Positions 3,266-55,277 of a stretch of DNA of 56,835 bases are shown here, one piece after another. The position numbers and the translations under genes were made by a program. The stretch comes from an uncultured Candidatus Saccharibacteria bacterium (lineage in GTDB: Bacteria > Patescibacteriota > Saccharimonadia > Saccharimonadales > Saccharimonadaceae): the NCBI GenBank assembly GCA_947306055.1, contig CAMZFK010000002.1, positions 1 through 56,835 on the forward strand. The letters are read 5' to 3'. The notes beneath the pieces are model-generated. The model had not been told where the DNA came from. It did not search any database and saw only the letters and a list, made by a program, of their open reading frames with translations. Every line of letters starts with the position of its first letter. The first letter of the stretch is position 1.

Positions 3266-3823
3266 ATGTACGGACCAACAGATCTAAAGAAAAATACTCT
3301 AATTACTTTAGACGGCCAGCCGTATAAAGTGGTGGAGTACTCACAAAAAGTTATGGGCCGCGGTGGTTCCATTGTAAACGTAAAGGTCAAAAACCTTGTC
3401 ACGGGCGCTCTGCTCCCAAAGACCTTTAAAGGCCAAGAAAAAATTGAACCGGCCGAGGTCACTACTCGCAAAGTTCAATATCTCTACAAGGATGATGAAA
3501 AGTTTTATTTCATGGATCCAGAGACTTTCGAGCAATACGAACTTATGGGCGACATGGTCGGCGACATGAAAGATTTTATGAAAGATGGTGACGAAATGGA
3601 AATCCAATTCTATAATGGCACTCCAATCAATCTCCAGCTTCCAAAGAATCTCTGGCTTGCAGTTACCTACACCGAGAGCGTAGTTAAAGGTGACACTACT
3701 ACTTCTGTAATGAAAGATGCTACTTTGGAAACCGGCGTAGTGGTCAAAGTCCCAGCATTCATTAAGGAAGGCGACATCGTCTCAGTCGACACCGAAACCT
3801 ACGAATATCGTGGAAGGAAATAA
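3266..3823 (+). CDS. efp: translation elongation factor P
   Basis: 185 residues with the three beta-barrel domains of EF-P: KOW-like N-terminal domain (residues 1-65), then two OB domains (from about 66 and about 128, ending VVKVPAFIKEGDIVSVDTETYEYRGR, the family signature). EF-P enters the E site and relieves stalling on polyproline. The modifiable loop reads VMGRGGS, placing Arg at residue 32 where many EF-Ps carry a modified Lys; Arg32 is rhamnosylated by EarP in Pseudomonas. No modification enzyme gene is visible in the window. AAGGAG stands 6 nt before the ATG. The gene ends in an ATG-overlapping stop with the next gene. Confidence 0.95.
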   Translation: MYGPTDLKKNTLITLDGQPYKVVEYSQKVMGRGGSIVNVKVKNLVTGALLPKTFKGQEKIEPAEVTTRKVQYLYKDDEKFYFMDPETFEQYELMGDMVGDMKDFMKDGDEMEIQFYNGTPINLQLPKNLWLAVTYTESVVKGDTTTSVMKDATLETGVVVKVPAFIKEGDIVSVDTETYEYRGRK

Positions 3824-4560
3824 TGGCAGCACGGACGGGTGACGGAGCTTGGGGGACCCCCACGGAGCCTTGCGACGTGGGGGAAAATGCGACGGCAGGA
3901 CCCGTCCGGGGCTATATTAAACTCTCTAATGCTGTCCGCGCCTTCAATTTCGATTTCCGTGGCAAGACCGTGCTCGATATCGGTTCTTCGACTGGCGGTT
4001 TCACCGAGCTCGCCCTAAAAAACGGCGCGAAAAAAGTCATCGCAGTAGAGAAAGGCTCTCACCAAATGAAGGCCCCTCTCCGCTTCGATCCCCGCATCGA
4101 ACTCCACGAAAAAACCGACATCTTCGACGTAGAAGCGCGGACAAAAGTAAAGCCCTCTGAGGGGCATCCGCAGTTGCTACGAGGACGAAGTGACGAGCCC
4201 CGTGAAGACGGGCGCGAGGAACGTCCCGAAGAGGGCATTACTTTTGTCCTTACTCCTGACGCTATAGTCGCAGACGTTTCTTTTTTGAGTTTGACGAAAA
4301 TATTGAAGTACGCCAAGGGGCATTTATCTGGCAAAAACACAGATTTTCTCGTGATGCTAAAGCCCCAGTTTGAAGCTCGCGAAGACCAGCTACATAAAGG
4401 TGTCGTCAAAAACGAAAAAATCCGCCGCGAAATTATCAAAAACTTTGAACAATGGCTCAAGCAAAACGGCTTCGTTATTATTAAAAAACGCGATAATGAC
4501 CTCGCTGGCCGCCACGGAAATTTGGAACGTTTTTACTGGTTGAAGCAAGCAGGGAAGTAG
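3823..4560 (+). CDS. TlyA-like 2'-O-ribose rRNA methyltransferase with two palindromic insertions
   Basis: The FtsJ/TlyA-type Rossmann fold is clear: SAM motif TVLDIGSSTGGFTELAL (about residues 49-65), VIAVEKG, then DAIVADVSFLSL and VMLKPQFEA, as in TlyA/hemolysin-A family 16S/23S rRNA methyltransferases. The N-terminal S4 domain of classical TlyA is missing. RGYIKLSNAV corresponds to the family's SRGGLKL motif. Residues about 4-29 and 106-143 are encoded by GC-rich palindromic elements (3832-3908, 4139-4249) and look like insertions: one at the extreme N-terminus, one in a surface loop just before the beta-strand leading to ADVSF. The frame stays open through both. The ATG overlaps the efp stop by 1 nt. 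Whether it modifies 16S, 23S or both cannot be read from sequence. Confidence 0.85.
   Translation: MAARTGDGAWGTPTEPCDVGENATAGPVRGYIKLSNAVRAFNFDFRGKTVLDIGSSTGGFTELALKNGAKKVIAVEKGSHQMKAPLRFDPRIELHEKTDIFDVEARTKVKPSEGHPQLLRGRSDEPREDGREERPEEGITFVLTPDAIVADVSFLSLTKILKYAKGHLSGKNTDFLVMLKPQFEAREDQLHKGVVKNEKIRREIIKNFEQWLKQNGFVIIKKRDNDLAGRHGNLERFYWLKQAGK
3832..3908 (+). repeat. in-frame palindromic element A (type 1)
   Basis: Outer arms CGGACGGGT (3832-3840) and ACCCGTCCG (3900-3908) are perfectly complementary. An inner hairpin pairs CCCCCAC (3857-3863) with GTGGGGG (3877-3883). It shares the blocks CGGGTGAC, GGGGGACCCCC, GAGCCT, TGGGGG and GGCAGGACCCG, in the same order, with the element at 18867-18942 in argS. 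It encodes residues about 4-29 of the methyltransferase. Confidence 0.85.
4139..4249 (+). repeat. in-frame palindromic element C (type 2)
   Basis: Arms GGACAAAAGTAA (4139-4150) and TTACTTTTGTCC (4238-4249) pair perfectly. After one A-A mismatch GCCCTCT pairs with AGAGGGC. The inner hairpin is GCCCCGT-GAAG-ACGGGC. It shares CCTCTGAGG at the left, CCGAAGAGGG at the right and the GCCCGT..ACGGGC core with the gyrA element (52645-52761). It encodes residues about 106-143 of the TlyA-like enzyme. Confidence 0.85.
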
Positions 4561-18072: not shown

Positions 18073-20007
18073 ATGGATGAAATCAAGCAAAAATTAAAAC
18101 TCATTATAAAAAATTTATACAATCTTGATTTTGAACCCGAGCTCACCCCATCTCCAGACAATATCGACGCAGATTACTCCACCAACGCCCCATTAAAACT
18201 CGCGAAAGACCTTCATAAATCTCCAATGCAAATTGCTGAGGAGTTAGAGACTGGGTTTGGAACTTTTGAGACCGTGTCCCGCGAGGGTCACGACCCGAGC
18301 GAAGTGATGGCAGAAGTTGCCAAAGGGGGATTGCGCAGCGCGGCAGCGCGAGCCATAGCAGCGCCCGCCCGTGGCGACTGGCCGGGCGACTGCGACCCCG
18401 TGGTAACTACTGCCATCACTCCCCCAGGATTTTTGAATTTTAGATTAGATGACGCATGTCTTAACGAGAGTCTTAATGGCTTGTATGGTGATTTCGACGG
18501 CGAAATTAAATCGAACGAACTTAGCGGCAAAACCGTAATTTGCGAATTTAGCGACCCGAATCCATTTAAAGTCCTCCATGTCGGCCATCTCTATACCAGC
18601 ATTGTTGGCGATTCCATTTCGAGACTTTACGAATACGCCGGCGCTAACGTCATCCGTGCCAATTTCGGTGGCGATGTTGGCCTCCACGTGGCAAAAACCA
18701 GCTACGCTTTGCTCAAAAATAACTTCACTCCTGACACCCTTACCATAGAAGATATCTCGAAATGCTATGTCGAAGGTACTGCCGCTTACGAAGAAGACGA
18801 GCAAGCCCACGCCGAGATCACTAGACTCAACAAAGAGATTTATAAAGTCAACGCCGAAGGTATTCATGGGCGGGTGACAGACTCGCAGGGGGACCCCCGC
18901 GAGAGCCTCGTGGGGGATAGCGAGTCTGGCAGGACCCGCCCAGAGGATAGACTCGCCGATCTTTATTGGAAAGGTCGCGAATTAAGCTATGATTATTTCA
19001 AAGCCTTCTACGCCAATATCGGCCTCACCTTTGACAAATACTATCCAGAATCCACCGTCGCCGCCCTCGGTCTTGAGACTGTCAAAAAAGAGCTCGCAGC
19101 CGGAGTCTATGAAGAGTCCGACGGCGCCGTTATCTTTGATGGCGACAAATTTGGTCTCCACACCCGCGTCTTTATCAATAAAGAGGGTGTCCCGACTTAC
19201 GAAGCAAAGGACGTCGGTCTGATTTTTACCAAAAACAACGATTATCATTTTGACAAATCCGTCGTCATCACTGGCAACGAGCAGCTTGAATACATGAAAG
19301 TCGTTCTAAAATCGGTCGAACAATACGCCCCAGACTTAGTCGCAAAAACCACACACTTGACTCACGGCCTCGTCAAGCTTCCAGGCAACGTTAAAATGTC
19401 ATCAAGGAAGGGCAACTTCTTAAAAGCTGTCGAGGTTCTCGACCTCGTGAAAGATGAATTAAAGTCCGAATATGGCTCCGAAGACGAAAAAGTCTCCCTT
19501 GCCGCCACCAAGTACGCCTTTTTGAAATACAAAATGGGCGGCAACATCATTTTCGATCCAAAAGAATCCGTCAAGATGACCGGCAACTCCGGCCCATACC
19601 TCCTCTACTCCTGCGTCCGCGCCAAGAAGATTCTCGAGAAGGTCGATAAAGAAGCTCGCGACGGGGTTCTTTTGCGACCCTTTGCGACTGACGAGGAGCA
19701 ACGGAGCGAAGTTTCGCCTGTGACGACGGGCCGAGACGAGCGCGTCGCGAAAGAATCCTCGCGCGAGCTTCTTAAAAAACTTTTAGAATATCGTAGCACG
19801 CTTACGGATGCCGTTGCCGAAATGGCCCCACACAAAGTCGCAAATTACCTATACGAGCTCGCCCAGGACTTTTCAAGATTTTACGAAAACTGTCAGGTCG
19901 CCGGCTCAGATGAAGAAGAAGAGCGCCTAAAAATTGTCAAAGTTTACCTAGACACTATGACCCACGGTCTAAACATTTTAGGTATTGAAATCCCGGAGGA
20001 AATGTAG
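18073..20007 (+). CDS. argS: arginyl-tRNA synthetase carrying three palindromic insertions
   Basis: 644 residues. The class I signature HIGH appears as HVGH (NPFKVLHVGHLYTS, about residue 170) and KMSKS as KMSSRKGNF (about 440). The N-terminal tRNA-binding domain ends in PPGFLNFRL. The C-terminal DALR anticodon domain includes NYLYELAQDFSRFYENCQV. It charges tRNA-Arg. Three GC-rich palindromes interrupt it: residues about 77-116 (before PPGFLNF), 265-290 (in the catalytic insertion region) and 526-567 (start of the DALR domain). All keep the frame open and sit between conserved blocks. The codon and GC content of those segments differs sharply from the rest. Confidence 0.93.
   Translation: MDEIKQKLKLIIKNLYNLDFEPELTPSPDNIDADYSTNAPLKLAKDLHKSPMQIAEELETGFGTFETVSREGHDPSEVMAEVAKGGLRSAAARAIAAPARGDWPGDCDPVVTTAITPPGFLNFRLDDACLNESLNGLYGDFDGEIKSNELSGKTVICEFSDPNPFKVLHVGHLYTSIVGDSISRLYEYAGANVIRANFGGDVGLHVAKTSYALLKNNFTPDTLTIEDISKCYVEGTAAYEEDEQAHAEITRLNKEIYKVNAEGIHGRVTDSQGDPRESLVGDSESGRTRPEDRLADLYWKGRELSYDYFKAFYANIGLTFDKYYPESTVAALGLETVKKELAAGVYEESDGAVIFDGDKFGLHTRVFINKEGVPTYEAKDVGLIFTKNNDYHFDKSVVITGNEQLEYMKVVLKSVEQYAPDLVAKTTHLTHGLVKLPGNVKMSSRKGNFLKAVEVLDLVKDELKSEYGSEDEKVSLAATKYAFLKYKMGGNIIFDPKESVKMTGNSGPYLLYSCVRAKKILEKVDKEARDGVLLRPFATDEEQRSEVSPVTTGRDERVAKESSRELLKKLLEYRSTLTDAVAEMAPHKVANYLYELAQDFSRFYENCQVAGSDEEEERLKIVKVYLDTMTHGLNILGIEIPEEM
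18303..18420 (+). repeat. in-frame palindromic element E in argS
   Basis: Arms 18303-18322 and 18401-18420 (AGTGATGGCAG... / ...CTGCCATCACT) pair over 20 nt with one mismatch and one G-T. Inside, CGCCCG pairs with CGGGCG. The right arm also encodes VTTAIT next to the conserved PPGFLNF motif. It shares ACCCGAGCGAAG-like words with the type 2 elements but its core is distinct. Confidence 0.75.
18867..18942 (+). repeat. in-frame palindromic element B (type 1) in argS
   Basis: Nearly perfect nested hairpin: TGGGCGGGT / ACCCGCCCA (9 bp), CAGACTCGC / GCGAGTCTG (9 bp), CCCCCGCGAG / CTCGTGGGGG (10 bp with one G-T), loop AGC. It shares ordered blocks with element A at 3832-3908 but is read in a different frame. 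Confidence 0.92.
19649..19773 (+). repeat. in-frame palindromic element F (type 2) in argS
   Basis: 30-nt arms 19649-19678 and 19744-19773 pair with two mismatches and a few G-T; the outer 12 bp (AAGAAGCTCGCG / CGCGAGCTTCTT) are perfect. The core shares GAGC-AACGGAGCGAAG and GACGACGGGCC with the gyrA element, in another reading frame. Confidence 0.85.
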
Positions 20008-26700: not shown

Positions 26701-26730
26701 TTGCAATTTTTATAATACTTGTGCTATAAT
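26701..26730 (+). promoter_or_regulatory. promoter of the giant surface-protein gene
   Basis: TTGCAA, 18 bp, TATAAT preceded by TGC. The leader of about 38 nt includes GAGAGGA and AGAGG before ATG 26776. Confidence 0.7.
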
Positions 26731-26775
26731 TATAGACAGTTAATCAGAGGTTTTATTGAGAGGACAAGAGAGGTA

Positions 26776-29700
26776 ATGATATCCACAAAAATCAAACACC
26801 AAATTAGCAGTATTAAATGGATGCGAAATGCAGCCTACTTTTCCATCCTAACTCTAGCCCTGCTTCTATCCTTTACCATTAATCCAGTAGGTAAAGAAAC
26901 CAGCGTAGAAGCCATTACTGGTACTGCTAATGCGGCTACAACCTCTCTAACCCTTAGCAGTACCAGTAATGAAGCCAAACTCACTATCTCTCCAACTAAT
27001 AGCAATGGCACCTTCACTTCCTCCACAGGCAGTGATATAGCCTCCTTCATGATTACCACAAACAACTACACAGGCTATACCCTAGGTATCACAGCTAGTG
27101 ATAATACTGGTAATCTAGTAAACACTAATACTAATGATACTATAGCTAGTATTACAGCAAATCTCACAGAATCATCCTTCAATACATCCACCAACAACAA
27201 CAAATGGGGCTACAAACCAAGCAGATATGTAGACACCACCAACAACACTACCACTACAATAGACAACACAGGCAATAACTCAGTCTTCCTCCCATCCCCT
27301 ACCACCTTCCCAACTCTCCTAGGTATCACAAGTACAGCTAATAGCATAGACAATAATAGCAGTAATGCAGATAACTATACTATAGCTCTAGGCCTAAGAG
27401 CAGACTATCACCTAGCTCCAGGCACCTACACCAAGACCTTCACCCTAACAGCCCTAGCTAATGATGCACCATATACTATCTACTACAACAAGAACACTAG
27501 TGATACTGTAACCAACATGCCTACCACCTCCACCAGTGGCTCTATCTCAGACACATCCATCACTCTAGCAAACAACATCCCCCAAAGAGCCCACTATACC
27601 TTCATAGGCTGGTGTAATAAAGAAACTACTACCACAAACGGTATAGATTCCTGTACAGGTACTAACCCAACCACCGGAGCAGCAGCTACAGTCTACAATC
27701 CAAACGGCAATAACACCAACCTCACCTACTACCTAGACCAAACCACAGAAAACATCACTACACTCTATGCTATGTGGAAGATTGATATGTTCACCATCAA
27801 TATCACTACCACCAATGGTGCAAGCAGTATCTCCATAGACAGCACTAACTACAACAATGGCACTACTGCCTCCCTAGCTTATGGTTCCACCCATACCATT
27901 ACTGGTAATTACGCCTCAGGCTACGAGTTTGACAGCTGGTCTACATCTGGCAATATCTCACTAACAAGCACTTCTTCATCCACCACCACCATGACCGTTA
28001 CTGGTGCGGGGACACTAACGCTAAATGGAAAGCAGAGCTGTGTGACGATCAGCGGATACCTTCAAGATTTTACTGGGACAGCGGACTACTGTAGCACTAC
28101 TGGCACTCTCACAGACAGCAGAGACGGGACTAGCTATACTGTGGGTAAATTAGCGGATAATAAGTGGTGGCTGTTAGATAACTTAGCCCTAGACATTACC
28201 ACCTCCACAGTGAAGAATAATCTCTCTGAGACCAATACTAACGCCTCAAATACTACGCTAAACTATCTCAAGAATGGTGGTGGCACCACTTCGGACCAAT
28301 ATGCCATGATTGGAGTTACCACTACTTGGGATGATAGTCAGTATAAGTATTCTGGTCCAAAAATCGCCACTAGTGGCACATGCTATGACACTAACTGCGT
28401 AAACGACCCAGAGTCTGGTCAATGGGCCAAAGACAGTCTAATAAGTTATGGGGACGGCTCTAATAGGATAGGCATTTACTACAATTTTTGTGCAGCCTCT
28501 GCAGGCTCATACTGCTATGGCAACGCTACCACTGGCTACGGCACGCCTTCTGGTAATGCCACCGAAGACATCTGCCCAGCAGGCTGGCGTTTACCTATAG
28601 GCGGGACGGCGAATAATGAATACGGAGCTCTATATACTGCCTATTCTAACAACGTTACGGATTCTATAAACGCGCTTCATGTCGCTCCCTCTGGTCAGTT
28701 TATCCCAAATTCAGCTAGGACGCAGGGGGGTAGAGGCCTCTTTTGGGCATCCACTAATATTGGCGATATGGCCATGTATGGTCTACTCATGCTTAATCGT
28801 AACGACCTTAGCGTGAGCGCTGTCCTAGACCGTAACTACGGTTATTCGGTTCGTTGCGTCTTGGATCGAGTAGACTACACATTCGCTTATAATAAAAATA
28901 CAAATGACGTCGTCTCAAATGTGCCAACTATCCAAACTGGTAGCACTCTCTCTGTGAACGGGATTACCATTCCAAATGATACTCCTGCCCGCTCTGGTTA
29001 TGCTTTTCTTGGTTGGTGCACCACCCAGCCAACTACGAATAGTGGCATAGATTCCTGCTCCGGTGCTACTTACTATCCAAGCACTCGGTATATAGAATAT
29101 GGCCGAACAGGACTAGTCTCTGGTACTTTTTATGCCATGTGGAGAGCACTCTCTTCAATGTCGACTATACAGAATATTGCTAGGGCCTCTTGTTCAGCTA
29201 GCCCAACTGAAGTTTACGATGTCCGTGATAATAATATCTACGCCATTCAAAAGCTCGCCGACGGTAAATGCTGGCTTCTAGACAATCTCCGTCTAGACCT
29301 CACAAACTCTACGGTAAAAGCCAATCTCTCTGTCACTAATACTAATGCTTCGAATACGACTCTAAATTACCTCAAAAATGGTGGTGGTACTACTTCAGAC
29401 CAATATGCTATCACTGGCGTAGTTGGATGGACAAGTAGTCCTAACTATGCTAGCTCATATAGCTTTTCAGATCCACTAATTGCTATCAGTGGTACTAATA
29501 AAACTAGTAATAATATTAGTAACTGGACTAAAGATACCACGGCGTCTTTCGCTATGGGCCAATCTGGAACGGGTAAAATAGGTGTATACTATAACTTCTG
29601 TGCTGCTTCTGCAGGTAGCTACTGCTATGGCGATGGTACAAGTTCTAATCCAATCTCCATCAATGTTACCGAAGATATCTGCCCAGCAAATTGGCGTATG

Positions 29701-31068
29701 CCTACAGGTGGTAGTAATGGAGAATACAGAGCTCTCTATACTGCCTATTCTAGCGACGGAGCAGCCTTCGTCAACATTCTCCACACCCCTCTCTCTGGCT
29801 ACTTCTACAGTAATGGCTCAGCCTACACTCAAGGTCTCCACGGCTACTTTTGGTCAGCATCTTTCTATAGTAATGGTGGCGGCGGTAGAGCCAGGTATTT
29901 GTTACAAGTTACTTCGTCAGGCGTAGACACGACATATTATACTCCTGCAAGTTATGGCTATTCAGTTCGCTGCGTTTTTGACCCACCCACACAGTACACC
30001 ATTACTTATAATAAAAATACTAGTGACACTGTTTCGAATATGCCAGCCAAACAAACTGGCAATGCCAGATCCATTGATTCAATCGTCCTTTCGGACAGTG
30101 TCCCTACTCGCTCTGGTTATGCTTTTCTTGGTTGGTGCACCACCCAGCCAACTACGAATAATGGCATAGATTTTTGCTCTAGCATCTCATATAATCCGAG
30201 AGACCAATATAATATAAACTCCGGCCAAGCAGAATCAGTTTCTATTATCCTCTATGCTATGTGGCAATCGTATTCTTTAGCACCAATAATGCAAAACGTC
30301 ACAGCTAGTACTTGCTACACATTCCCAATATTTGCTAGGGATTCCCGCGACAATGAACTTTATTCTATTCAAAAACTTGCCGACGGTAAATGTTGGCTAC
30401 TAGATAATCTCCGCTTGGATCTCACAAACTCTACAGTAAAAGCCAATCTTTCCGCTACTAATACTAATGCTTCAAACACGACTTTAAATTATCTTAAAAA
30501 TGGCGGGGGCGCTAATTCGGACCAATATGCTATGACTGGGGCTACTGCTACTTGGAACAATAGCCGGTATAGGTATTCTGGCCCTAAAATCGCTGCTAGT
30601 GGCACTGGCAATAATGGTGATTGGACTAAAGACACCGAGGTTCCTCTCGCTATGGGTCAGTCTGGCTCTGGTAAAATAGGCATATATTATAACTATTGCG
30701 CTGCTTCTGCAGGCTCATACTGCTATGGCAACGCTACCACTGGCTCCGGCACGCCTTCTGGTAATGCCACCGAAGACATCTGCCCAGCAGGCTGGCGTAT
30801 ACCTACAGGTGGTAGTAATGGAGAATACCAAGCTCTCTATACTGCCTATTCTAGCGATAGAGCAGCATTTGTTAATGCTCTCCGCACTCCTATTTCGGGG
30901 TATTTCTATAGTGGCGCTAGTAGTCAAAGCTCAATTGGCTACTTTTGGTCGTCTACATACAGCAGCTCTTCCGGCATGTATGATTTGTATGTGGCTACGT
31001 CTGGTTTTAGCGCGCAGTATAGCAGCAGTCGCTATAATGGCTACTCCATCCGCTGCATCCTCAAATAG
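26776..31068 (+). CDS. large surface protein with FISUMP and Listeria-Bacteroides repeats
   Basis: 1430 residues. N-terminal signal/anchor helix (AAYFSILTLALLLSFTI), then a Thr/Ser/Asn-rich beta domain (to about residue 230). Three InlB-type Listeria-Bacteroides repeats contain FIGWCNKE or FLGWCTTQ and end YAMW (near nt 27480-27780, 28873-29145, 29995-30265). Each is followed by a FISUMP-like domain with DGKCWLLDNLRLDL, TEDICPAGWR(L/I)PTGG and a YSVRC ending (near 28040-28870, 29160-29985, 30290-31065). No LPXTG or C-terminal helix is seen. The coding strand is strikingly purine-poor and Thr/Asn-rich, unlike its neighbours. It is likely an adhesin; repeat units show recent DNA exchange. Confidence 0.85.
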   Translation: MISTKIKHQISSIKWMRNAAYFSILTLALLLSFTINPVGKETSVEAITGTANAATTSLTLSSTSNEAKLTISPTNSNGTFTSSTGSDIASFMITTNNYTGYTLGITASDNTGNLVNTNTNDTIASITANLTESSFNTSTNNNKWGYKPSRYVDTTNNTTTTIDNTGNNSVFLPSPTTFPTLLGITSTANSIDNNSSNADNYTIALGLRADYHLAPGTYTKTFTLTALANDAPYTIYYNKNTSDTVTNMPTTSTSGSISDTSITLANNIPQRAHYTFIGWCNKETTTTNGIDSCTGTNPTTGAAATVYNPNGNNTNLTYYLDQTTENITTLYAMWKIDMFTINITTTNGASSISIDSTNYNNGTTASLAYGSTHTITGNYASGYEFDSWSTSGNISLTSTSSSTTTMTVTGAGTLTLNGKQSCVTISGYLQDFTGTADYCSTTGTLTDSRDGTSYTVGKLADNKWWLLDNLALDITTSTVKNNLSETNTNASNTTLNYLKNGGGTTSDQYAMIGVTTTWDDSQYKYSGPKIATSGTCYDTNCVNDPESGQWAKDSLISYGDGSNRIGIYYNFCAASAGSYCYGNATTGYGTPSGNATEDICPAGWRLPIGGTANNEYGALYTAYSNNVTDSINALHVAPSGQFIPNSARTQGGRGLFWASTNIGDMAMYGLLMLNRNDLSVSAVLDRNYGYSVRCVLDRVDYTFAYNKNTNDVVSNVPTIQTGSTLSVNGITIPNDTPARSGYAFLGWCTTQPTTNSGIDSCSGATYYPSTRYIEYGRTGLVSGTFYAMWRALSSMSTIQNIARASCSASPTEVYDVRDNNIYAIQKLADGKCWLLDNLRLDLTNSTVKANLSVTNTNASNTTLNYLKNGGGTTSDQYAITGVVGWTSSPNYASSYSFSDPLIAISGTNKTSNNISNWTKDTTASFAMGQSGTGKIGVYYNFCAASAGSYCYGDGTSSNPISINVTEDICPANWRMPTGGSNGEYRALYTAYSSDGAAFVNILHTPLSGYFYSNGSAYTQGLHGYFWSASFYSNGGGGRARYLLQVTSSGVDTTYYTPASYGYSVRCVFDPPTQYTITYNKNTSDTVSNMPAKQTGNARSIDSIVLSDSVPTRSGYAFLGWCTTQPTTNNGIDFCSSISYNPRDQYNINSGQAESVSIILYAMWQSYSLAPIMQNVTASTCYTFPIFARDSRDNELYSIQKLADGKCWLLDNLRLDLTNSTVKANLSATNTNASNTTLNYLKNGGGANSDQYAMTGATATWNNSRYRYSGPKIAASGTGNNGDWTKDTEVPLAMGQSGSGKIGIYYNYCAASAGSYCYGNATTGSGTPSGNATEDICPAGWRIPTGGSNGEYQALYTAYSSDRAAFVNALRTPISGYFYSGASSQSSIGYFWSSTYSSSSGMYDLYVATSGFSAQYSSSRYNGYSIRCILK
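28498..28590 (+). repeat. 93-bp direct repeat, copy 1
   Basis: Identical to 30706-30798 except for one base (ctac versus ctcc). It encodes the AGSYCYGNATTG...TEDICPAGWR segment of FISUMP units 1 and 3; unit 2 is clearly diverged here. Confidence 0.9.
30706..30798 (+). repeat. 93-bp direct repeat, copy 2
   Basis: Second copy of the 93-bp repeat (92/93 identity with 28498-28590), evidence of recent recombination or gene conversion between FISUMP units. Confidence 0.9.
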
Positions 31069-38813: not shown

Positions 38814-38961
38814 GGGTAGTTTTGTGAGCTTGGAGCAAGCCCAAGGGCAAAAAACTAGTTTCACAGGTCGAGTACGGAACTGTAATTCCGGCGCAGACCT
38901 GACTGAAACTAGTTTTTTGGACCTGGCGCGAAGCGATTTGCAAGCAAACACTACCCCTACC
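38809..38961 (+). repeat. long nested palindrome G joining thrS and miaA
   Basis: Outer arms GGTAGGGGTAGT (38809-38820) and ACTACCCCTACC (38950-38961) are a perfect 12-bp match. Inner arms 38849-38869 and 38896-38918 (AAAAAACTAGTTTCA / TGAAACTAGTTTTTT plus AGGTC/GACCT) pair strongly, and GGAA/TTCC closes the tip. The left arm holds the thrS stop; the rest encodes a 46-residue leader on MiaA. The inner T run also makes it terminator-like. Confidence 0.85.
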
Positions 38962-39705
38962 GTCATTATCTTGGGTCCTACGGGCTCTGGCAAGACCGGT
39001 GTTTCTATCGAAATCGCAAAGGCTATCGGCGGCGAGATTATTTCTGCCGATTCTCGCGCTATCTTTAAAGGTATGGATATCGGCACGGCGAAGCCAAGCC
39101 TAGAAGAAAGACAAGGTATACCACACTACGGTATAGACTTGGTGAACCCAGGCGAACGTTTTACTGTGGCTGATTGGAAAGCTTATGCCGAGGACAAAAT
39201 CAAGGACATCAAGGCGCGTGGCAAAGTTCCGATTATCGCCGGCGGCACGGGACTTTATATTGATGCGTTAATTTACGACTACCATTTCAAAGGCCCAACG
39301 GGCAACAAAATTGGCGATGCTGAACAAAAAACTTGTACAGACCGGCAAGAGATAAAAGGAGATTTTTTAATCATTGGGATCAAGACTGACTTCGAGAAGC
39401 TAAAAGAGAGACTAGCGTTACGCGCAGACCAAATGTTTTGCGATGAATTATACGACGAAACCAAAAAACTTGTTCAAGCCTACGGCTGGGGAAGCGGCGC
39501 CATGAAAAGTAATATCTACGAGTATGCTTGGAAATATCTAAATGGCGAACTGTCGTTAGATGAAGCCAAAAAACTCTTTTTATATGAAGATTATCACTTG
39601 GCCAAACGTCAAATAACCTGGTTTAAAAGAAACAAAGAAATTATTTGGCTGGAGCTAGAAAAAATTTATCCATTTGTAATAAAAAAGTTTAAAAACTCAT
39701 TATAA
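38824..39705 (+). CDS. miaA: tRNA dimethylallyltransferase
   Basis: 293 residues as drawn from GTG 38824. P-loop VIILGPTGSGKTGVSIEIA, ISADSRAIFKGMDIGTAKP and GGTGLYIDALI are the MiaA motifs; the C-terminal ITWFKRNKEIIWL matches the family. It transfers dimethylallyl to A37 of UNN-reading tRNAs. Family members start right before the P-loop, so residues 1-46 come from palindrome G. The start is uncertain: GTG 38824 has only a weak GGGG upstream, while TTG codons nearer the P-loop have no better site. Confidence 0.9.
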   Translation: MSLEQAQGQKTSFTGRVRNCNSGADLTETSFLDLARSDLQANTTPTVIILGPTGSGKTGVSIEIAKAIGGEIISADSRAIFKGMDIGTAKPSLEERQGIPHYGIDLVNPGERFTVADWKAYAEDKIKDIKARGKVPIIAGGTGLYIDALIYDYHFKGPTGNKIGDAEQKTCTDRQEIKGDFLIIGIKTDFEKLKERLALRADQMFCDELYDETKKLVQAYGWGSGAMKSNIYEYAWKYLNGELSLDEAKKLFLYEDYHLAKRQITWFKRNKEIIWLELEKIYPFVIKKFKNSL

Positions 39706-52616: not shown

Positions 52617-55277
52617 ATGGCAGATAAGAATGACAACTTGAAAGGAGCGGAAGGAATGTCCTCTGAGGAACCTTTCGCGACGACGGGAGCGAACGGAGCG
52701 AGCGAAGCCCGTAACGACGGGCCTGAGCGAAGCGTTTCCGAAGAGGGTATTGCTTCCGCTTCTGTAGAGAAGGGTATTGAGCTTCGTACTGTTGAGAACA
52801 CCATGGAAGACTACTTCCTACGTTACTCTCTTTCCGTTATTGTCGACCGCGCTCTCCCAGACGTCCGTGATGGTTTGAAGCCAGTCAACCGCCGTATATT
52901 ATATGCGATGAACAAAAATGGCTGGAAGGCTCCACATGCTACGGTCAAGTCCGCTCGTATTGTCGGTGAAGTCATGGGTAAATATCACCCGCACGGCGAT
53001 TCGTCCATTTATGATGCAATGGTCAACCTCGCTCAGCCATGGAAAATGCGCTACACCCTCGTAGAAGGTCAAGGTAACTTTGGTTCTATGGACGGTGATG
53101 AGCCAGCAGCTTCCCGTTACACCGAGGCTCGCCTTGATAAAGTTGGAGCCGAGCTTCTTGCTGATATCGAGAAAGAAACCGTAGATTTTCGTGACAACTT
53201 CGATGGCACCGAGAAAGAGCCGTCAGTTCTCCCATCCGCTGTACCGAACATTCTCTTAAATGGTCAGATGGGTATCGCCGTCGGTATGGCGACTAATATT
53301 CCGCCACACAATCTTGGCGAGCTCGTAGACGCCACCGTCGCCCAGATTGACAACCCAGACATCACCCTCGAAGAATTGATGAAATATGTCAAAGGCCCAG
53401 ATTTCCCAACTGGTGCCGAGGTCTATGGTGGCACCCCTATGAAAGAGGCCTACGCCACCGGTAAAGGCTCTGTCACGATCCGCGCTGTTGCTAATATCGA
53501 AGAGCGCAAAAACGGCCGCTATAACATCGTGATTACAGAGGTCCCTTACGGCATGAGCAAGGAAGACTTCATCGAGAAGGTTCGCGACCTCGTTCTCGCG
53601 AAAAAACTCGATCATATCGCCGACGCTCGTGATGAATCTGCCCGTGGCAAGGTTCGTGTCGTAGTAGAGTTAAAGAAAGATGCGTTCCCAAAGAAGATCT
53701 TGAACCAGCTTTACAAGCTTACTCCGCTCCAGACTTCTTTCCATTATAATATGCTCGCTCTTATTGACGGTATCCAGCCTCGTATCCTCGGGCTTAAGGA
53801 AATTTTGGCAGAGTTCATCAAGCACCGCCAGAAGGTCATCCGCCGCCGCACCGAGTTTGATCTTAAAAAGGCCAAAGAGCGCGCGCATATCTTAGAAGGT
53901 TTGAAGATCGCTCTCGATAATATCGATGAAGTCATTAAGACTATTCGTGCTGCTTATGATGACGCCGATAAACAACTCATGAAGAAATTCGGCCTCTCTG
54001 AGATCCAGGCTAACGCCATTCTTCAGATGCAACTTCGCCGTCTCCAAGGTCTCGAGCGCGACAAGATTGAAGAAGAGTTGAAGCAACTTCACGAGTTGAT
54101 CAAGCAGCTCGAAGCCATTCTTGCTGACGAAAAGGAAGTCCTCCGCGTAGTCAAGGAAGAACTCATCGCCATCAAAGAAAAATACGACGATCCTCGCCGC
54201 TCCAAGATTATTAATCATGAGGTTGGCAAGTTCTCCGAGGAAGAATTAATTCCAGAAGAAGAAAGCGTTATTCTCCTTACTACCGAAAATTACATGAAGC
54301 GTGTCCCGCAGAATGATTTTCGTCGCCAAAATCGTGGCGGTAAAGGCAAGCGCGGCATGACGACTAAAGAGGAAGATGTTATCCAGCAAATTATGACCGC
54401 AAATTCGCACGATTTCTTGCTATTCTTTACGAACCAAGGTCGTCTCTTCCGTATGAAGGCCTATGAAGTCCCGCAAGCCTCACTTTCTGCGAAGGGTACC
54501 GCTGCAGTTAATATGCTCAACATGCATCCAGAAGAGAAAATCACCGCTATTATTAAACAAGGTGATACTGGAGCAGACGGGTATCTCTTTATGGCTACCA
54601 AAAAAGGCACCATCAAGAAGTCCGCTATCAAAGATTTCTTTAATGTCCGTAGCAATGGCCTCATCGCTATCAAGCTCGACGCTGGTGACGAGCTCCGCTG
54701 GGTCAAAGAGACCACCGGTGATCATGATATCGTTATCTCTACCTCTGCCGGCCAAGCCACTCGCTTCAATGAAAAGGAAGTCCGCGTGATGGGCCGCTCT
54801 GCTATGGGTGTCCGCGGCATGCGTCTTCGCCCGAAAGATGAAATCGTCGGCATGGATGTAATTACCGATCCAGATCAGAAATTGATTGCAGTCTCGGCTA
54901 ATGGCTATGGTAAAGCCTGCCTTGTCTCCAACTTCCCACCACACAAGCGCGGCGGTGTCGGTATTAAGGTTGCCGCCGTCACAGAGAAGACCGGCCCAAT
55001 CGTAGCTGTCCATACTCTAGACCCAGAGGCCAAGGAAGTCATTATGATGTCTACCAAGGGTCAGGCCATCCGTGTAGCGATGAAAGAAATTCCAACTCTC
55101 GGTCGCGCCACTCAGGGTGTCCGCATCATGAAAATGAGCGAAGGTGACACAGTTGCCTCTATCGGTATCGTCCTTCCAGAAGAGGAATCGTCTGACGATG
55201 TCGCCGTCGCCGAGGATGTTTCGAAAGCTCCTGTCGAAGCAGAAGTTGAAACCGAGGCTCAAGAATCTGCAGAATAA
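52617..55277 (+). CDS. gyrA: DNA gyrase subunit A with palindrome-encoded N-terminal extension
   Basis: 886 residues. The core starts near residue 58 ([42 protein letters not shown]). The quinolone region [19 protein letters not shown] carries Ser and Asp at the positions equivalent to E. coli 83 and 87. The active Tyr is in [10 protein letters not shown]. The beta-pinwheel ends with GyrA box [10 protein letters not shown], so it is true gyrase, not topo IV. Residues about 10-49 are encoded by palindromic element D and are absent from ordinary GyrA. The Glu/Ala-rich tail is variable. Confidence 0.97.
52645..52761 (+). repeat. in-frame palindromic element D (type 2) in gyrA
   Basis: Arms around AGCGGAAG...CCTCT (52646-52664) and AGAGG...CTTCCGCT (52742-52760) pair with one mismatch and two G-T. 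Inner GCCCGT-AACG-ACGGGC. It shares CCTCTGAGG and CCGAAGAGGG ends with element C (same reading frame) and GAGC-AACGGAGCGA with element F (different frame). Confidence 0.88.

Follow-up and report, generated by a model that had tools for sequence, protein, structure and literature searches.

Protein-coding palindromes have previously been described mainly in the Rickettsiales. Rickettsia palindromic elements (RPE) are palindromic repeats of ~100-150 bp that lie in intergenic DNA and, in frame, within conserved proteins, and one guanylate kinase that carries an RPE is both translated and active (PMC2229807). REP elements (GTAG/CGTC repeats), which are mobilised by RAYT, are short, hairpin-forming dispersed repeats that are occasionally found in genes (PMC3733652). 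Two mitochondrial systems are mentioned in PMC6649704: Nematomorpha carry perfect inverted repeats in functional coding sequence, for which template switching has been proposed, and the many palindromic gene inserts of Magnusiomyces, the byps, are reported to be transcribed and left untranslated. Our literature search, which covered papers open without subscription, turned up no description of comparable elements from Saccharibacteria or Patescibacteria.

The DNA analyzed here, referred to as the window, is the whole 56,835-nucleotide stretch and represents contig 2 of a 523-kb genome assembly of 21 contigs that is 78% complete. The genome is placed in Nanosyncoccus, a genus of Candidatus Saccharibacteria, by its named relatives, which come mostly from ruminant gut metagenomes. 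Pfam assigns to the open reading frame of interest (Table 1) the N-domain, catalytic domain and DALR domain of arginyl-tRNA synthetase (ArgRS) and no domains other than these, an identity also backed by PDB matches to both its sequence and its predicted fold. The ArgRS catalytic motif residues are invariant and none is located within an insert. The first-pass annotation had reported three separate palindromes in this gene, and all three were confirmed, at 18303-18420, 18864-18944 and 19649-19773. The arms of the first are 25 nt long and 84% complementary, those of the third 30 nt and 83% complementary, and as RNA the three palindromes fold with z scores of -6.54, -6.91 and -8.95, respectively, with no shuffled sequence equally stable. 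Comparison with 49 same-genus orthologues places the extra ArgRS sequence at aa ~61-113, ~267-292 and ~524-560. The window gene devotes 53, 26 and 37 codons to these stretches, versus 4-5, 1 and 12-15 codons in typical species in which the site is empty. The net excess is therefore ~48, ~25 and ~23 residues. The sizes originally claimed were ~40, ~26 and ~42, of which the third corresponds to the span of the palindrome and not to the net gain. Assignment of the inserts to the tRNA-binding, catalytic and DALR domains holds for sites 2 and 3, but site 1 occupies the linker that joins the N-terminal domain to the catalytic domain. The right arm of insert 1 codes for residues preceding the conserved PPGFLN, and a probable remnant of an older insert lies upstream of the left arm; ETVSREGYDPSEV..., or close variants of it, is found inside longer inserts of three other orthologues (L021, L030 and L015).

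Table 1. Inserts of the argS gene and other element copies in the window (window coordinates)
Feature	Position	Strand	Basis or remark
argS (arginyl-tRNA synthetase) ORF with three palindromic inserts, 644 aa	18073..20007	+	Pfam, PDB sequence and fold matches
Probable remnant of an older insert at site 1, peptide FETVSREGHDPSEV	18256..18302	+	Motif intact in other species
Insert 1, site-specific left arm, reverse complement of downstream flank	18303..18325	+	Inverted repeat; own-arm pairing score 15
Insert 1, conserved F1 core	18326..18399	+	Core 99% identical at C3:15802-15877, arms unrelated
Insert 1, right arm, ancestral side	18400..18420	+	Flank profile test against empty alleles
Insert 2, F2 element (GGGTGAC ... 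GGGGGACCCCC ... GGCAGGACCC)	18864..18944	+	Covarying stems; without long site-specific arms
Insert 3, F1b element, 30-nt arms	19649..19773	+	Same element at same site in L145
F2 element forming N-terminus of TlyA-like methyltransferase ORF (3823-4560)	3829..3910	+	
F1b-related palindrome in the same TlyA-like ORF (3823-4560)	4139..4249	+	Site of an F1 copy in G175
F5 element forming N-terminus of MiaA ORF (38824-39705)	38833..38925	+	
F1b element near N-terminus of GyrA ORF (52617-55277)	52656..52755	+	

An ArgRS match was obtained in 57 of 60 same-genus genomes, and many of the tblastn alignments are interrupted at the three insert sites (aa ~60-112, ~267-292 and ~525-560). Our ArgRS set consists of 100 distinct genes, mostly 544 to 727 aa in length. 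Detailed comparison of some of these genes shows the three sites to be the main source of length differences, being empty in many species and occupied by other elements in others. In the nearest orthologue (L015, 83% DNA identity), sites 1 and 2 are empty and a different element is present at site 3. About seven of the 100 orthologues have three inserts, a count that rests partly on inspection, and pattern-based counting at site 2 gave some false lengths. The same kinds of insert are seen in genomes from many independent studies, and an assembly artefact is therefore rejected. At site 3, the element of the window (19645-19776) is 91% identical to that of L145, with seven synonymous and three nonsynonymous changes between them, whereas the ArgRS genes as a whole are 75% identical, which suggests exchange of this element between species.

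Elements of the same kinds are found throughout the genome. Self-comparison and profile searches define at least five families (F1, F1b, F2, F3/F4 and F5) plus minor ones, with ~49 elements in 523 kb accounting for a total of 4.1 kb; 36 are within ORFs of at least 100 aa and 13 are not. Three elements each are carried by MnmA, ArgRS and TopA, and two each by Der, Obg, TlyA and one 319-aa ORF. Further carriers, named from their protein sequences, are RsmA, AlaRS, GatA, GatB, LepA, cysteine desulfurase, MiaA and GyrA. Taken with the ArgRS orthologues that also have three, this is at odds with the initial view that such a load is exceptional for one gene. The elements occur in both orientations, and also nested inside one another. 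In LepA, a single loop accommodates many different insert types across species, all of them in frame. In class-wide samples of 295 genomes, in which copies per genome are lower bounds, the F2 model matched 36 members of the genus and the F1 model 64. Outside the genus, matches to these two models are few and mostly weaker, and the families appear to be largely restricted to Nanosyncoccus.

In the TopA gene (L048, C4:23404-25881) all three elements are F2 copies that hardly differ from one another (STGPAAASSPTVAGAPAGVPQAASPVD or a variant of it). The MnmA gene (L044, C3:16648-18153) contains one F3 and two F4 elements and, close to its N-terminus, also the short tandem repeat SSTPSEELLTANP. Nesting takes the form of F3 or F1 cores within an F2 outer motif, as seen at C3:21557-21658 (L045), C4:4393-4489 (L047) and in genome G056 (A2:49957). 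In the same genome as the window, partial tRNA copies lie beside intact tRNA genes with the missing part exchanged for a hairpin (C10:2898-3129, L056; C7:7628-7861, L053; C1:70063-70267, L042), and a similar tRNA-adjacent indel differs between G056 and G175. Finally, positions 26719-31068 of the window encode a repeat-rich protein of 1,449 aa, the repeats of which are also present on contigs C4, C8, C12 and C14.

Are the inserts retained in the protein? The used frame of 65 distinct ArgRS inserts (100 species) contains no stops in 2,481 codons, whereas the two remaining forward frames together contain 231 in 4,832 codons, and in no species does an insert depart from a whole number of codons. 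The ArgRS genes were chosen as stop-free frames, which favors the zero-stop result; in the tblastn search of the genus, which had no open-frame requirement, the pieces flanking the insert sites still share one frame. The GC content of the inserts is 0.58-0.63 versus 0.43 for genes. For inserts common to related species pN/pS is 0.55, with 60 of 166 changes synonymous (p = 3e-4, uncorrected for transition bias), a statistic that is only suggestive of constraint, and of weak constraint, on the insert peptides. An AlphaFold2 model built with 42 orthologues (pTM 0.81) has pLDDT below 50 at residues 66-107, 268-287, 534-540 and 547-552, which are the three inserts. Frame, codon lengths, pN/pS and predicted disorder all support the suggestion in the first-pass annotation that the peptides loop out harmlessly, and the inserts are apparently translated as floppy, disordered loops of ArgRS. 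An intein was considered and dismissed, given that the inserts add just ~23-48 aa and that Pfam finds ArgRS domains alone.

The same annotation had raised RNA-level removal, in which a new splicing or processing system would cut the palindromes from the mRNA and leave a mature protein without inserts. The RNA hairpins are stable, and in F2 the internal stems covary (48 cells with two-sided changes versus 15.7 in shuffles, with none of 500 as high) around invariant unpaired motifs in the manner of a functional RNA. However, precise removal would need no open frame, and what is found in all species is an open frame of whole codons with stops confined to the other frames. In addition, an Rfam search of the whole window at gathering score matched nothing but RNase P, tmRNA and two tRNAs, with no self-splicing intron or ribozyme, and the gene-borne copies lie in either orientation, which is hard to reconcile with a strand-specific RNA processing signal. 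We consider removal from the mRNA very improbable. Skipping of the inserts by the ribosome has in its favor the strong hairpins within reading frames and the example of the Magnusiomyces byps, an analogy for translational bypassing noted in PMC6649704, but inserts that are bypassed would need to be neither stop-free nor frame-keeping, and this explanation is likewise very improbable. The reading that we favor, with a probability of roughly 0.8, is that the palindromes are mobile, translated elements. On this view, short, structured mobile DNA elements of ~60-110 nt, themselves non-autonomous, have spread through Nanosyncoccus genomes. Copies would persist in essential genes if the insertion is in frame and falls in a loop with room for additional residues, where they would be transcribed and translated to give disordered loops on a working ArgRS.

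In F1, F1b, F3, F4 and F5, each copy consists of a conserved core flanked by arms of 16-25 nt that are unrelated between copies but complementary within a copy. Median own-arm pairing scores are 14.5 for F1, 11 for F1b, 17.5 for F3, 16.5 for F4 and 13.5 for F5, against cross-copy medians of 4 to 4.5, except in F5 where the value is 7.5 on three copies only; over the five armed families together the score is 15 for own arms versus 4.5 between copies. The clearest case is provided by two F1 copies in the same genome with cores that are 99% identical and arms that are wholly different. In an independent set of 29 F1 elements, the arms of 27 pair better than the 99th percentile for cross pairs, and long open frames contain 23 of the elements. 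Fixed or shared terminal inverted repeats are absent from the five families, in that left arms show no relation from one copy to the next, and no direct target-site duplication was apparent by eye in insert/empty alignments of distant pairs. Short shared ends are seen in F2 alone; this family lacks long site-specific arms, which indicates that not all families build them. There are also copies with imperfect arms, such as L281 when compared with L280.

One explanation for these arms is that the elements are of an ordinary MITE-like or REP-like type with fixed ends, and that the arms reflect insertion into ready-made hairpins. Such elements are likewise dispersed, short and palindromic, and IS200/IS605-like transposases recognize hairpins. 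Long ready-made hairpins are nevertheless rare: outside the elements only 12 hairpins of at least 14 bp with a short loop exist genome-wide, and none reaches 16 bp. Moreover, empty ArgRS site-1 alleles have a pairing score of 5.5 versus 5.0 at random gene places, which is what is expected by chance. Our search for a mobilising enzyme covered two families, Y1 transposase (PF01797) and reverse transcriptase (RVT_1), and neither had a match in the same genome, the assembly of which is 78% complete; the lack of a Y1 match there would also count against fixed-end elements, an account we regard as quite improbable. Carriage by phage was also looked into and rejected, as the F3 core had no match and the F2 pattern matched one phage-like contig with no other resemblance, which we take to be chance.

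A second explanation is that the core inserts first between unrelated flanks, and that the arms become complementary later through quasipalindrome template switching or selection on the fold. Perfect palindromes are known to arise by template switching, as discussed in PMC6649704, and the covarying inner stems of F2 are compatible with selection of this kind. On the other hand, the two same-genome F1 copies already possess full, unrelated arms while their cores are 99% identical, which places arm formation at the time of insertion or shortly thereafter, and the arms of L281 seem to be eroding instead of being kept intact. We therefore judge late arm formation unlikely. When ArgRS site 1 is compared with a profile of empty alleles, the right (downstream) flank scores +4.6 and the left (upstream) flank -1.0. 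Since the downstream flank fits the empty alleles and the upstream flank does not, the downstream flank was probably copied in inverted form to give the upstream arm. By inspection, the LepA flanks agree with this direction, whereas the TlyA event in G175, compared with the empty G056 allele (87% identity), looks reversed; which flank was copied is judged from comparisons at protein level or at 75-87% identity only, and the boundary pattern at site 3 is loose.

The stems unique to each copy, the chance-level pairing at empty sites and the inverted copy at site 1 together point to an insertion that appears to arm itself. We propose that the core joins the target and folds back on itself, that its folded end primes copying of one flank, and that the inverted copy of that flank replaces or precedes the opposite flank to generate a hairpin-capped palindrome with no dedicated transposase. 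Alternatively, template switching soon after insertion could make the arms. The fold-back mechanism by itself is put forward tentatively, at somewhat less than even odds. Comparably possible, and equally provisional, is the broader proposal that these elements represent a class of mobile hairpins in which insertion builds its own stem by inverted target duplication, is transposase-free and leaves a product that can be read as protein.

That essential genes of a reduced Saccharibacteria genus harbor several unrelated families, and at high density, suggests that small symbiont genomes have repeatedly acquired new peptide segments in this way. The arms particular to each site have the look of a direct trace left by the insertion mechanism, which strain comparison now makes testable for such elements. 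In annotation, the inserts also alter domain lengths and gene starts (TlyA, MiaA and GyrA).

Among known systems, the Nanosyncoccus elements differ from REP elements, which are 20-40 bp, mostly extragenic and associated with RAYT transposases; here, 36 of 49 copies are in ORFs and no RAYT-type transposase was found in the 78%-complete assembly. MITEs have fixed terminal inverted repeats, whereas in five families here the arms differ with each copy. In the palindromes of Nematomorpha, as PMC6649704 presents them, conserved protein is encoded in each of the two arms and a shared mobile core is not mentioned; in Nanosyncoccus, by contrast, a dispersed core would add new, disordered residues. Unlike in byps, the frame stays open through the insert. 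The closest likeness is to the Rickettsia and Wolbachia palindromic elements, which are also palindromes dispersed in genes and intergenic DNA, and in-frame, stop-free insertion at tolerant sites of conserved proteins is found here as it is for RPE. The differences are that a terminal inverted repeat of 12 bp is given for RPE while the outer arms of five families here are unique to the site, and that the present elements come from a different phylum, form several families with cores of their own, include nested copies and number as many as three in one gene. Because the five families lack shared terminal repeats, the Nanosyncoccus elements are, on this comparison, best called RPE-like in behavior rather than RPE.
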